DNA from: Haloflavibacter putidus | GTDB taxonomy: Bacteria > Bacteroidota > Bacteroidia > Flavobacteriales > Flavobacteriaceae | Assembly (NCBI RefSeq): GCF_006546625.1 | Contig: NZ_VIAR01000004.1 | Coordinates: 124,001-188,000 of the forward strand | DNA length: 64,000 bases | Direction: 5' to 3' | In this document: in pieces, positions 52,358 to 57,688 of the stretch | Layout of the letters: the number at the start of each line of letters is the position of its first letter | Numbering within the stretch: the first letter of the stretch is position 1 | Notes under the pieces: generated by a model | The model's database searches: none | Told to the model about the DNA's origin: nothing | Seen by the model: the letters and a program-made list of their open reading frames with translations, nothing else | Program-made: the position numbers and the translations under genes

Positions 52358-55300
52358 ATGGCATTATTTCAAACTTCGGTTTTAAAAAAGTACCTTAAAA
52401 CACAAGATCAAGACCAGATTAATAAAGCGTATAAAAAGTTTAGCAACTACTTTTTAAATCTGTCTATTCAAGAAAATATCAAGAGTTCTAAAGAAGAAGA
52501 GTACCAAGGTATTTTTCTAACAGAGCTTTTTGTAAAGGTTTTAGGCTATACGATGAAACCTAATATAGATTTTAATTTGGTGGCAGAATATAAAAACCAA
52601 ACCAATTCGCGTAAAGCAGATGGCGCAATTTTAAAAGAAGATTTAGCCATAGGCGTTATAGAACTTAAAGGTGCCAATACCAAAGATTTAGAAAGTATTC
52701 GTAAACAGGCTTTTGACTATAAAGCTAATCAAAAAGGATGTAAATATGTAATTACTTCCAACTTCGAAAAACTACGGTTTTATATTAACGATGCAACCGA
52801 GTTTTTAGAGTTTGATCTTTTCGGTTTAACCGAAGAAAAATTTGCATTACTCTATTTATGTCTGCAAAAAGAAAATGTAGTAAACAATATTCCATTAGAA
52901 ATAAAGGAAGCTTCTTTGGTAGAAGAAAACCAGATTACCAAAGGTTTTTACAAAGATTATTCTGTTTTTAAACGCGAGTTGTACCGCGATTTGGTGCGCA
53001 ATAATGCTAAAAATTTAAAAGCAATTCGTAAAAATGAATTGCTTAAAGAAATTGAAGAAACAGCTACGCTTAACGCGGAAATTGCTCGCTTAGAGAAAAA
53101 CGTAAAACTTACATTATTTAAGAAGTCGCAAAAACTTATAGACCGCTTTCTATTTATCTTCTTTGCCGAAGATCGCGGACTTTTACCGCCTAATGCTATT
53201 TTACAAATTATAGAAGATTGGCACAAACTTAAAGACCTAGATGTAAACCAACCACTTTATGAGCGGTTTAAACTCTATTTTAATTACTTAGATACCGGAA
53301 GAAAAGGCACCGACACAAAAGCAGAAATCTTTGCTTATAACGGTGGACTTTTTAAACCGGATGCTATTTTAGATTTACTGGAAATTAACGATGAGTTGCT
53401 CTATAAACATACTTCCCAACTTTCCAGCTATGATTTTGAAAGCCAAGTAGACGTTAATATTTTAGGACATATTTTTGAAAATTCGCTAAACGAAATAGAA
53501 AGTGTAAGCGCAGAAATTGAAGGCGAAAATTTTGAAAAACAAAAAAGCAAACGTAAAAAAGATGGCGTTTTTTATACGCCCAAATACATTACCAAATATA
53601 TTGTAGAAAATACCATAGGTAAACTTTGTCAAGAAAAGAAAAGCGAGCTTAATTTTCACGAAGAAGATTATTTTGAAGTAAAAAAAGGCACAAGAACTGC
53701 CACCAAAAAGAAACTTATAGCAACCTTAGATACATATCGCGATTGGCTGTTGCAACTCACTATCTGCGATCCGGCTTGCGGCTCTGGCGCGTTTCTAAAC
53801 CAAGCATTAGAATTTTTAATCGCAGAACACGCCTATATAGATGAGCTTAAAGCAAAGGTTTTGGGCGGTGCCATTGTGTTTAGTGATATAGAAAACACCA
53901 TTTTAGAAAACAATATTTATGGCGTAGATATTAACGAAGAAAGCGTAGAAATTGCCAAGCTTTCTTTATGGTTACGAACCGCACAACCGCGTAGAAAATT
54001 AAACGATTTGAGCAGCAATATTAAATGCGGAAATTCTTTAATAGAAGATAAAAGCGTTGCTGGCGATAAAGCTTTTAAATGGGGAAAAGAATTTCCGGCG
54101 GTTTTTAAAGAAAAAAACAAAAAAGCCTATCATATTACCACAGCCATTCACGACAGCCGAACTTCTGCCAGAATGGAAGAATATGAGGTGCGTAAACGTC
54201 GGGATTTTGGAACCAATCCTTATCCCAATATTGTTTATTTTACTCCCGAAGACGATTTTGTGATTACCAAAACTTTAAAAGAAATTGTAGAAGAAGATAA
54301 CCTCCTTGTTTTGGCTTACAATATTTGCGGCGATCACATTCATTTATTGCTAGTGTGTGAACTTGATGAAATACCGCGCATCATGCAAAAAATAAAAGCA
54401 GTAACCTCAAAGAATGTCCGTATTGCACGGGAGCGTAGTACACACAATACAAGGGAGCATGCTCCCTTGCAGGGTACATACCTGCAGAATGCTCCTTTGC
54501 GACCTGCAGGTAATACAACAAGGGAGTATGATGCACGTAATACAAGAGAGCAAGATGCACGCAATACAAGGGAGCAAGATGCACGCAATACAAGGGAGCA
54601 AGATGCACACAATACAAGGGAGCATGCTCCCTTGCGACATGTAGAATTGCGACGTGCTCCCTTGCAGGATACAAACCTGCAGCATGCTCCTTTGCGGAAA
54701 GTAAAGAAGAAAAACAAACCGTTGTGGCAACAAAAATACAGCGCACCAAAAGAGATCACAAGTACAGAACAACTCACCAACACGCTGAACTACATTAAAG
54801 GCAACCGCAGCAAACACGAATTAGAACCGCATCCTAAAAAAACGCAGGAATTAATTCATGGTATGCTTTGCACGTACACCGAAGCTTTTAAACCAGAATA
54901 CACCGGCGGTTTTGATGTGGTAATTGGGAATCCGCCTTATTTGAGAAAACAAGGACTGGTTGAGCATTATCCTAAAATGGTAGAATACTATGAGCAAAAC
55001 TTCATTTCGGCAACTTCAAATTATGATATTTATGCGCTTTTTATGGAGCGTTCTTACGGGTTAATTAATCAATATGGAATAACTTCTTTTATCTTACCAC
55101 ATAAATTTTTAATAGCAGATTTTGGTTTGGGAATTCGGAAATTCTTCAAGGAAAAAACTGCCGTAAATAATCTAGTACATTTTGGCTCTGAGATTGTCTT
55201 TACGGAAGCAGCCACTTATACTTGTATTATAGATTTAACCAAAACCAGAAAAGAAAAGTTACGCTTTAAAAAACTAAAACCCGAACAGTTATTTGACCCG

Positions 55301-56479
55301 TTTGTTTGGGAAAGTATGAAATACGAAAAACTAACTACCAAAAACTGGGATTTACAAAGTGAAGAAGTTGTAGAAATCATTGAGAAATTAGAAAAGCAAC
55401 CCCAAACTATTGATAGTGTTTTTGATAAAATTTTTCAAGGTATCGCTACAAGTTTAGACGCAGTCTATGTCTTTCAAGGCGAAGAATACGGTAATTTCAT
55501 AAAAGGCTATAACGAAAAATACGATTATCATTTCGAAATTGAAAAAGAAATGGTTAAACCTATTTTTGGTGGAAGAGATATTTTTAAATACGATATACCT
55601 GAAATATCGAATTATGTAATTTTTCCTTACATATTGAGTGGTGATGAATCCACACCAATGGATGAGAGCTACATAAAAAAGAATCTTCCAAAAGCATATG
55701 CTTATTTAAAGCATTTTGAAAAAGAAATTAGAGGAAGAGAACGCGGACGAATGGATATTGAAGAAGGGTGGTTTTTATATATTTATCCTAAAAACCTACC
55801 TTATTTTCAAAACCCGAAAATTATGACTCGAGAAATATCTTTGGGTTGTAATATGACCTATGATGAAAATGGAGAGTTTTATCATAATACTAAGGTCTAT
55901 TCTTTCGTAAAAAAAGACAGTTTTGAAGTAGATGAAAAATACTATTTAGGAATATTAAATTCTAAGGTAATGTGGTTCTTTTTGAAAAATACTGGTTCCG
56001 AATATAGAGGTGGTTACTATGTTTTTAAAACAAACTATTTAAAACCTTTCCCGTTACCGGAAATTTCTTCAAACGCCCAAGAAATAATTAACTTAGTCAA
56101 TGAAATTTTAGCCCAAAATAAAGATTTTTCAAGCAAAACAGAAAAATTCCAAAACTACTTATTATCCCAATATCCGGTAGAAAAACTCTCTAAAAAACTA
56201 CAAAACTGGCACGAGTTAGATTTTGGCGATTTTATTAAAGAGCTCAACAAAGCCATTAATAAAGAAAACCGCGCAAGACGTAAAAATGAGCAATCGGAAA
56301 TCCCAAAACTCACCAAAAAAAACGAGTTTGAATGGATGGAGCTATTTGAAGACAACAAGAAAAAAGCGGTTGAACTACAAACCGAAATAAACCGTATAGA
56401 TAACCAAATAGACCAAATGGTTTATGAGTTGTATGGCTTAACGGAAGAGGAGATAAAGATTGTGGAAAATACTGACTAG
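52358..56479 (+). CDS. type IIG restriction-modification enzyme (Eco57I-like) with embedded Y1-transposase-like domain
   Basis: A 1373-residue single-chain restriction enzyme and N6-adenine methyltransferase. N-terminal PD-(D/E)XK nuclease: D88 and E102-x-K104 (KADGAI, GVIELKGAN). Methylase motif I begins at D471 (DPACGSGAFLNQAL) and catalytic motif IV is NPPY at 858-861 (GGFDVVIGNPPYLRK). The C-terminal target-recognition region (about 1040-1370) is of TaqI_C type. Between KEFPAVF (ends 583) and GGFDVV (from 850), adjacent in ordinary relatives, lies an insertion of about 266 residues with HUH-nuclease motifs and an in-frame DNA repeat array. The frame is intact, so the protein may be functional. 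It stands alone, with no separate methylase or defence partner nearby. Confidence 0.93.
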   Translation: MALFQTSVLKKYLKTQDQDQINKAYKKFSNYFLNLSIQENIKSSKEEEYQGIFLTELFVKVLGYTMKPNIDFNLVAEYKNQTNSRKADGAILKEDLAIGVIELKGANTKDLESIRKQAFDYKANQKGCKYVITSNFEKLRFYINDATEFLEFDLFGLTEEKFALLYLCLQKENVVNNIPLEIKEASLVEENQITKGFYKDYSVFKRELYRDLVRNNAKNLKAIRKNELLKEIEETATLNAEIARLEKNVKLTLFKKSQKLIDRFLFIFFAEDRGLLPPNAILQIIEDWHKLKDLDVNQPLYERFKLYFNYLDTGRKGTDTKAEIFAYNGGLFKPDAILDLLEINDELLYKHTSQLSSYDFESQVDVNILGHIFENSLNEIESVSAEIEGENFEKQKSKRKKDGVFYTPKYITKYIVENTIGKLCQEKKSELNFHEEDYFEVKKGTRTATKKKLIATLDTYRDWLLQLTICDPACGSGAFLNQALEFLIAEHAYIDELKAKVLGGAIVFSDIENTILENNIYGVDINEESVEIAKLSLWLRTAQPRRKLNDLSSNIKCGNSLIEDKSVAGDKAFKWGKEFPAVFKEKNKKAYHITTAIHDSRTSARMEEYEVRKRRDFGTNPYPNIVYFTPEDDFVITKTLKEIVEEDNLLVLAYNICGDHIHLLLVCELDEIPRIMQKIKAVTSKNVRIARERSTHNTREHAPLQGTYLQNAPLRPAGNTTREYDARNTREQDARNTREQDARNTREQDAHNTREHAPLRHVELRRAPLQDTNLQHAPLRKVKKKNKPLWQQKYSAPKEITSTEQLTNTLNYIKGNRSKHELEPHPKKTQELIHGMLCTYTEAFKPEYTGGFDVVIGNPPYLRKQGLVEHYPKMVEYYEQNFISATSNYDIYALFMERSYGLINQYGITSFILPHKFLIADFGLGIRKFFKEKTAVNNLVHFGSEIVFTEAATYTCIIDLTKTRKEKLRFKKLKPEQLFDPFVWESMKYEKLTTKNWDLQSEEVVEIIEKLEKQPQTIDSVFDKIFQGIATSLDAVYVFQGEEYGNFIKGYNEKYDYHFEIEKEMVKPIFGGRDIFKYDIPEISNYVIFPYILSGDESTPMDESYIKKNLPKAYAYLKHFEKEIRGRERGRMDIEEGWFLYIYPKNLPYFQNPKIMTREISLGCNMTYDENGEFYHNTKVYSFVKKDSFEVDEKYYLGILNSKVMWFFLKNTGSEYRGGYYVFKTNYLKPFPLPEISSNAQEIINLVNEILAQNKDFSSKTEKFQNYLLSQYPVEKLSKKLQNWHELDFGDFIKELNKAINKENRARRKNEQSEIPKLTKKNEFEWMELFEDNKKKAVELQTEINRIDNQIDQMVYELYGLTEEEIKIVENTD
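54095..54105. repeat. left copy of 11-bp direct repeat flanking the inserted domain
   Basis: CCGGCGGTTTT, identical to 54903-54913. The two copies are read in different codon phases (PAVF here, GGF at the right) and are 808 bp apart start to start. Confidence 0.7.
54107..54904 (+). mobile_element. IS200/REP-associated (Y1, HUH) transposase-like domain inserted in frame
   Basis: Codons 584-849 of the restriction-modification gene. The segment reads like a small REP-associated tyrosine transposase: YHITTAIHDSRTSARM (from Y591), LAYNICGDHIHLLLV with the HUH pair H660 and H662, RIMQKIKAVTSK, then after the repeat array KNKPLWQQKYSAPKEITSTE and LNYIKGNRSKHEL with Tyr812 as a candidate nucleophile. 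Without the roughly 93-residue array it is about 173 residues, the size of a compact transposase of this type. An 11-bp direct repeat lies at both edges. No start or stop codon separates it from the host gene. Confidence 0.75.
54442..54690. repeat. in-frame array of REP-like palindromes and 24-bp tandem repeats
   Basis: Two perfect 20-bp palindromes CAAGGGAGCATGCTCCCTTG lie at 54450-54469 and 54615-54634. Between them are four 24-bp direct repeats (54530-54625) encoding the octapeptide DARNTREQ with small variations. Partial copies of the palindromes (GCTCCTTTGCG, GTGCTCCCTTGCAGGA) and a CAGG-CCTG hairpin repeat on both sides. The whole array keeps the reading frame of the host gene and interrupts the Y1-like domain between its HUH half and its C-terminal helix. 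Confidence 0.9.
54903..54913. repeat. right copy of 11-bp direct repeat flanking the inserted domain
   Basis: CCGGCGGTTTT, identical to 54095-54105, at the point where the canonical methylase sequence (GGFDVVIGNPPY) resumes. Confidence 0.7.
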
Positions 56480-57196: not shown

Positions 57197-57203
57197 ATGC
57201 TTG

Positions 57204-57277
57204 TCGGGATGACAGGATTTGAACCTGCGACCCCACGCCCCCCAGGCGTGTACGCTACCGGACTGCGCTACATCCCG
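57204..57277 (-). tRNA. tRNA-Pro (anticodon GGG)
   Basis: On the minus strand the acceptor arms CGGGATG and CATCCCG pair fully, with discriminator A. The anticodon stem CACGC/GCGTG encloses the loop CTGGGGG, giving anticodon GGG (Pro). The T-arm has GGTTCAAATCC, and the D-arm AGCGCAGTCCGGTAGCG contains the GG pair. 74 nt without an encoded CCA, as is common in Bacteroidetes. Reads CCC/CCT codons. Confidence 0.95.
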
Positions 57278-57688
57278 AATTGTTTTTTAAGATCAAATTC
57301 TTCAATCTTAAACCAGTTATTTTAAAAAAGACTACACTTATTGTAGTGCAGTTTATCCTGAGCTGCGACCCTAGGAGCATGCCTGCATTGAGCGCAGACG
57401 AAATGTCGAAGGGCTACATCCCGAAAATGTTTGAAAGCTTTGCATAAGCTAAAGCTTTGCATAAGCTAAAGCTTACAAGCCTGCAAATATACTTAACTTT
57501 TCTTGTTCTTTACAAAAGAAAAACGAGAAAAAATTGGCTATAATAATAGGCGTAAGATTGTCTAATTTTTTACCGAAAAATTCCTTCCGTAAAGCTAAAA
57601 ACAAAAGATATTAAAGCTTTGCAATTAATTATTTGTTAAAGCTAAATAGGGGTTGAGCGATACGCTTAATTTATACGAAATTTGCAAA
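57278..57688. other. intergenic region with tRNA/repeat relics
   Basis: 411 bp upstream of tRNA-Pro and before the MFS gene. It contains TTTATCCTGAGCTGCGACCC at 57351-57370, then a GAGCGCAGACGAAATGTCGA segment followed by GGGCTACATCCCGAA (57411-57425), which copies the tRNA 5' end. Next come two perfect 17-bp tandem repeats AGCTTTGCATAAGCTAA (57436-57469), and one TTCCGTAAAG (57585-57594). No gene. Confidence 0.6.
57436..57469. repeat. two tandem copies of a 17-bp unit
   Basis: AGCTTTGCATAAGCTAA at 57436-57452 and 57453-57469, with a third partial copy (AGCTT) after. Confidence 0.85.

Follow-up and report, generated by a model that had tools for sequence, protein, structure and literature searches.

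How does a transposase-like domain come to lie in frame within a restriction-modification (RM) enzyme, and what would it do there? The question is raised by a type IIG gene in the window, by which we mean the whole stretch of 64,000 nucleotides of Haloflavibacter putidus DNA that was analysed. One chain holds a nuclease, a helical spacer, a gamma N6-methyltransferase (MTase) and a recognition domain, which is the type IIG layout, with the nuclease block assigned by alignment only. We take the ADGAIL...ELKG block to be this nuclease; a strict nuclease-motif pattern matched 47 of 66 hosts and was too narrow for use. The MTase core has structural matches in CamA, MmeI, M.TaqI and BrxX, and by its predicted function the host enzyme would methylate and probably cut foreign DNA. 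The sequence-only reading had placed a HUH/Y1 domain in frame inside this enzyme, and that placement holds, as a type IIG MTase fold and a HUH fold are both predicted within one chain. The insert occupies the MTase loop just before motif IV, and the features of the gene are collected in Table 1.

Table 1. Positions in the window of the chimeric gene and its parts
Feature	Position	Strand	Remark
Chimeric type IIG restriction-modification gene, 1373 aa	52358..56479	+	PADLOC REase_MTase_IIG, E 3e-275
Host N-terminal part: nuclease-like region (ADGAIL...VIELKG), helical spacer, MTase motif I (DPACGSGAF)	52358..54106	+	
Inserted HUH/Y1 (RAYT-like) domain, residues 584-849	54107..54904	+	no counterpart in L016
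HUH motif H660-I661-H662	54335..54343	+	both His unchanged across 10 aligned inserts
Perfect 20-bp palindrome CAAGGGAGCATGCTCCCTTG, in frame as TREHAPLQ	54450..54469	.	
24-bp tandem repeat, 4.5 copies, half-palindrome-like units	54518..54624	+	
Second copy of palindrome CAAGGGAGCATGCTCCCTTG	54615..54634	.	
Candidate catalytic tyrosine Y812 in NYIKGNRSKHEL	54791..54793	+	invariant in 10 aligned inserts
MTase motif IV block GGFDVVIGNPPY, immediately 3' of insert	54905..54940	+	
TaqI_C-like target recognition region, residues 1067-1233	55556..56056	+	PF12950, E 7.8e-17

An empty form of the site is seen in the congener Mesonia sp. 4-133 (L016), whose copy of the gene lacks the insert and is identical to that of the window at 93% of protein positions before the site and 88% after it (88 and 86% for DNA). 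There EFPTVFAK abuts the motif IV block directly with nothing between, so that the flanking blocks are indeed normally adjacent, as had been supposed, and 49 of the 54 host loci without the domain have this standard spacing; in two the spacing is shorter by seven residues, and in three the junction holds 12–19 additional ones. A further copy, in G053, is 100% identical to L016 and thus probably of the same genome, and the two were counted once. L052 (the second copy of G321), L061 (G299) and L074 (G130), which lack the HUH domain, have short insertions at the same junction, in frame and containing SLRG(G)T(T)KQS. They are presumably another dispersed repeat, and this loop thus seems to be a hot spot where repeats enter in frame. 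That the insert is a normal part of all Eco57I-like enzymes is excluded by the 48 empty hosts placed in the tree. As for the surroundings, the downstream neighbours of L016 are those of the window (tRNA-Pro, MFS) and its upstream DNA is different. In the window the tRNA-Pro gene (57203-57277) adjoins the RM gene, with a perfect 17-bp tandem repeat (2.4 copies) close by at 57434-57474; an Rfam search gave a single hit, to a tRNA. Since the L016 copy has a phage-type integrase-like gene upstream, the tRNA-Pro/RM region may be an island site.

The insert belongs to the HUH/Y1 superfamily, with the HUH and Y1 motifs in order and a Pfam match above the cut-off, and a Y1 transposase fold is predicted for it with 4er8 as the best structural match. 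H77, H79 and Y229 (insert numbering) are invariant together with other residues across 10 aligned inserts, which are as little as 26% identical to that of the window; the alignment leaves aside the frameshifted copy of G047 and that of G822. The proposal that the domain shows the blocks of REP-associated transposases stands for the HUH and Y1 motifs and their order. The curated NCBIfam RAYT model gives the insert 42 bits against a cut-off of 80, and the YIxxNP-type tyrosine block of RAYT/TnpA_REP is absent from the aligned inserts, which have YI..N[RH].KH. Nor are there the mobile near-identical copies of IS200/IS605 elements, the genome having a single copy of the domain. With DH[IVM]H ... 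YIxxNxxKH, unlike the subclasses tabulated in PMC6006769, the inserted domain is a RAYT-like TnpA_Y1 group of its own, and by its motifs it looks complete. Its dN/dS (NG86) is 0.010/0.101 for L032/L033 (about 0.1) and 0.070/1.193 for L031/L032 (about 0.06), both pairs being from the G420/G439/G446 set and the remaining pairs too diverged to judge, and in this one set of close relatives the insert thus evolves under purifying selection. These results bear on whether the domain could be an inert passenger, a relic Y1 domain that is tolerated with its palindromes in an insertion-accepting loop and has no present activity. Three empty hosts with other short in-frame insertions at the junction and the low-complexity linker of the insert in the window would suit such a relic, but invariant HUH and tyrosine residues in 10/10 aligned inserts at this divergence, and dN/dS of about 0.1 or less in two pairs, make it quite improbable.

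Searches of overlapping family, phylum and order genome samples gave 12 fused genomes, all Bacteroidota (G000, G047, G123, G153, G227, G321, G416, G420, G439, G446, G581, G822), and in 12/12 the domain lies directly 5' of GGFDVV, that is, in the same loop and at the same junction. The host gene is present in 56 of 397 family genomes (E 1e-60) and the insert in six of the 397 (E 1e-6), while a profile of five inserts matches 6/395 phylum genomes, the window's own included (E 1e-12). Within the order of G420, 19 of 128 genomes match at E 1e-8. Four of these are strong, all fused and one of them new (G822); the 15 weak ones hold 22 matches of 36–51 bits, which are free-standing proteins of 179–224 aa and once a copy with stops. 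In a tree of Y1 proteins with a weak base and long branches meeting, the fused domains separate from 19 of these 22 and from 11 other Y1 proteins of the same genomes. No strong match outside a type IIG gene was found in the family, phylum and order searches, and no match to the insert among plasmids (E 1e-8), phages (E 1e-5, with the insert of L019 as query) or viral contigs. Three of the 12 fused genes are broken (G047, G321, G446), the type IIG copy of G446 being split into two frames.

The same junction in 12 independent genomes, mostly in one open frame, already refutes a chimeric assembly or gene-calling artefact, for which no support was found and which has practically no chance of being correct. 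A Y1 or RAYT domain inside an RM enzyme appears in no title or opening abstract among the literature matches listed. The distribution also speaks to a defence effector, in which the HUH domain would let the RM enzyme attack phage or plasmid DNA that is single-stranded or folded into hairpins, as an additional nuclease, and the hairpins would be side products. We regard this as rather unlikely: in its favour, the domain is conserved and in the genomes searched is found only inside the RM enzyme, but most hosts do without it (6/56 host-bearing family genomes have it), no PADLOC model matches the insert at E 0.1, and the domain carries hairpins as a REPtron does.

A single capture, as the sequence-only reading had it, gives way to recurrent insertion at one position. 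On a host tree of 59 N-terminal parts (11 filled and 48 empty, without G822, seven duplicate loci and six loci missed by the pattern) the presence of the insert needs eight gains or losses, and a single clade is rejected (p-AU 2e-7). The search for homologues with the same insertion further revealed that insert and host phylogenies conflict. L017 and L021 have hosts that are 89% identical and inserts that are only 50% identical, whereas L017 and L019 have inserts at 70% and hosts at 61%. In AU tests, for which the groups were picked after the identities were known, the insert data reject the pair L017+L021 (p 0.0037) and the host data reject the insert's grouping of the window with L017, L019 and L020 (p 3.7e-7); in both trees L034 sits on a very long branch. 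The host-tree test and this conflict reject vertical inheritance of one fusion, and since the trees disagree the domain has been exchanged between hosts. Insertion at one position in 12 genomes, its presence/absence polymorphism and the tree conflict are direct observations, and because relatives gain, lose and exchange it, the insertion looks like a genuine molecular lodger that had not been described before, rather than a single accident.

Two comparisons indicate how the exchange may proceed. Between L017 and L021 DNA similarity falls at the insert start and remains low through the recognition domain, so the insert can travel with the recognition domain; between the window and L016 the change is confined to the insert, which can therefore also be exchanged independently. 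Such exchange could come about by recombination between the MTase motifs conserved on either side of the insert. That the domain jumped in by its own transposition found no backing at the junctions: those of the window share CCGGCGGTTTT (11 bp), a word without counterpart in 8/9 other inserts tested, and those of L031 share 10 bp. As the other eight of 10 inserts share only 5–7 bp and the word is absent at the site in L016, we treat it as chance and reject a target duplication. Homologous recombination through the MTase motifs explains the data as well as transposition. L032 and L033 (G420, G446) resemble each other as far as motif IV, carry unrelated recognition domains after it and agree once more beyond these, which is a recent specificity swap. 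Insert-specific gene conversion between the two is not claimed, since the tract of low divergence already begins in the host part.

The CAAGG hairpins, which had been pointed out beside the domain, are a companion feature of it. A CAAGG..CCTTG palindrome with arms of 9–10 bp lies within 11 of the 12 inserts and in 0/48 empty host loci, with a core that varies (GGAGCATGCTCC in the window, G321 and G047; GGGCTTAAGCCC in G153 and G123; GGGTTTAAACCC in G416); the insert of G581 has a different palindrome and no CAAGG one. Six of the 12 fused genes have another copy beyond the recognition domain, either still inside the gene or shortly after it. Copies stand just downstream of the gene in G420, G439 and G446, and elsewhere in the genome in G000 and G123. 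The insert thus resembles RAYT/TnpA_REP in having cognate palindromes both within or close to its own gene and at other places in the genome. Of the 11 copies in the window's genome, nine are not in the chimeric gene; G123 has four such copies, three of which have arms of at least 9. None of these 13 falls within an ORF of 80 aa or longer, and two congeners have no intergenic CAAGG palindromes. Among 339 family genomes the palindrome is present in 6/6 fused and 8/333 unfused ones (Fisher p 1.5e-9), an association that is partly circular because most copies lie in the gene itself; with outside-gene copies only, it is 2/6 against 8/333 (p 0.011). This co-occurrence is, again, observed directly. 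The GTAG foot of classical REPs is present at 0/12 intergenic copies and, within 8 nt, at 2/32 of all copies. At one orthologous intergenic site (L116), G053 and G273 are both without the hairpin, with flanks too diverged for a clean insertion to be read.

Some CAAGG hairpins of the window's genome (L117:1860-2140, L119:1990-2110) lie inside a longer dispersed repeat, whose flanks resemble one another on either side of the hairpin and which may be a MITE-like element. The same genome has a free-standing RAYT (L002:1306-1959, + strand) with NHFH and YIINNP blocks, by its motifs of the subclass 2.4 type, and with an in-gene repeat of its own, RTGELQFAPT. By eye the in-gene repeats differ, and L002 was rejected as source of the CAAGG hairpins.

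Hairpins on both sides of a recognition domain raise the idea of a specificity shuffler, in which they and the HUH domain would promote recognition domain exchange. The second palindrome in half of the fused genes and the L032/L033 swap agree with this, but the other 6/12 lack a second copy past the recognition domain and the 3' breakpoint of L032/L033 falls about 300 bp short of the hairpin. Moreover, recognition domains are swapped among type IIG and type I enzymes without any HUH domain, and we find the idea very improbable.

The reading that we prefer, at a probability of roughly 0.6, is a REPtron-like unit of HUH enzyme domain and hairpins, nested in frame in an RM gene, whose domain is active, spreads hairpins and is passed between hosts. 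By analogy with TnpA_REP, the domain would be an endonuclease for single-stranded DNA that would bind a single-stranded hairpin and cleave and rejoin it via a phosphotyrosine, and would thereby spread hairpins in some genomes. Its passage from host to host would rely chiefly on homologous recombination at the conserved motifs that flank it, the RM gene serving as its vehicle, and the loop it occupies would be tolerant enough to leave the host enzyme active. Against this REPtron-like unit we count the partly circular association of hairpins with fusion, the three broken genes, the deviating palindrome of G581, the missing GTAG foot, the second RAYT (L002) and the low insert divergence of L032/L033 as part of a tract beginning in the host part. 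Possible, though doubtful, is a HUH group that lives only as an in-frame type IIG lodger at one loop, with hairpins in its own coding sequence and homing-like passage (a "HUH intein without splicing"), and that may drive specificity exchange where hairpins flank the recognition domain.

Type IIG enzymes (Eco57I, MmeI and BrxX/PglX kin) resemble the whole host protein, but none of the CamA, MmeI, M.TaqI and BrxX structures is described with a HUH domain in this loop, and the 48 empty relatives in the tree have none. Inteins are likewise in-frame lodgers at a conserved position. Rickettsia palindromic elements are in-frame palindromes in coding genes (PMC3733652); unlike in both cases, the lodger here is a HUH enzyme domain. 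Among HUH enzymes, RAYT subclass 2.4 shares the fold, and, like the palindromes that PMC6006769 describes as inserted in frame between its HUH and Y blocks, those of the insert lie in frame between these blocks with intergenic copies elsewhere. The insert differs in residing in an RM enzyme, in lacking the GTAG foot and in its motifs (DH[IVM]H and YIxxNxxKH against NH[IFV]H and YIxNNP). TnpA_Y1 subclass 1.2, according to the same paper, has DH[IV]H and a YIKNQKEHH block resembling the YIxxNRxKHEL of the insert, and is found in Bacteroidetes without typical REPs, but its proteins are free-standing; members assigned by motif (L128-L132) branch apart from the fused group.

According to the introduction of PMC8266576, TnpA_REP is a domesticated transposase that mostly occurs as a single copy, shows no sign of moving, and spreads hairpins in a manner yet to be explained. 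The insert, in contrast, is a related domain with presence/absence polymorphism at a site that can be compared in nearly identical genes, and hairpins track it. It offers a natural system for how HUH enzymes and palindromes co-evolve and spread, in which it may also be tested whether a restriction enzyme is able to edit single-stranded DNA as well. The survey that classified this superfamily removed proteins longer than expected, regarding them as fusions or annotation errors (PMC6006769), and such chimeras may thus have been passed over. An unrelated Y1 fusion is found in G153 (L185:789-2258, - strand), where an open frame of 490 aa has a RAYT-like protein (NHFH) at its N-terminus, followed by a second enzyme. 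This second part we take to be a whole coproporphyrinogen III oxidase (HemF).
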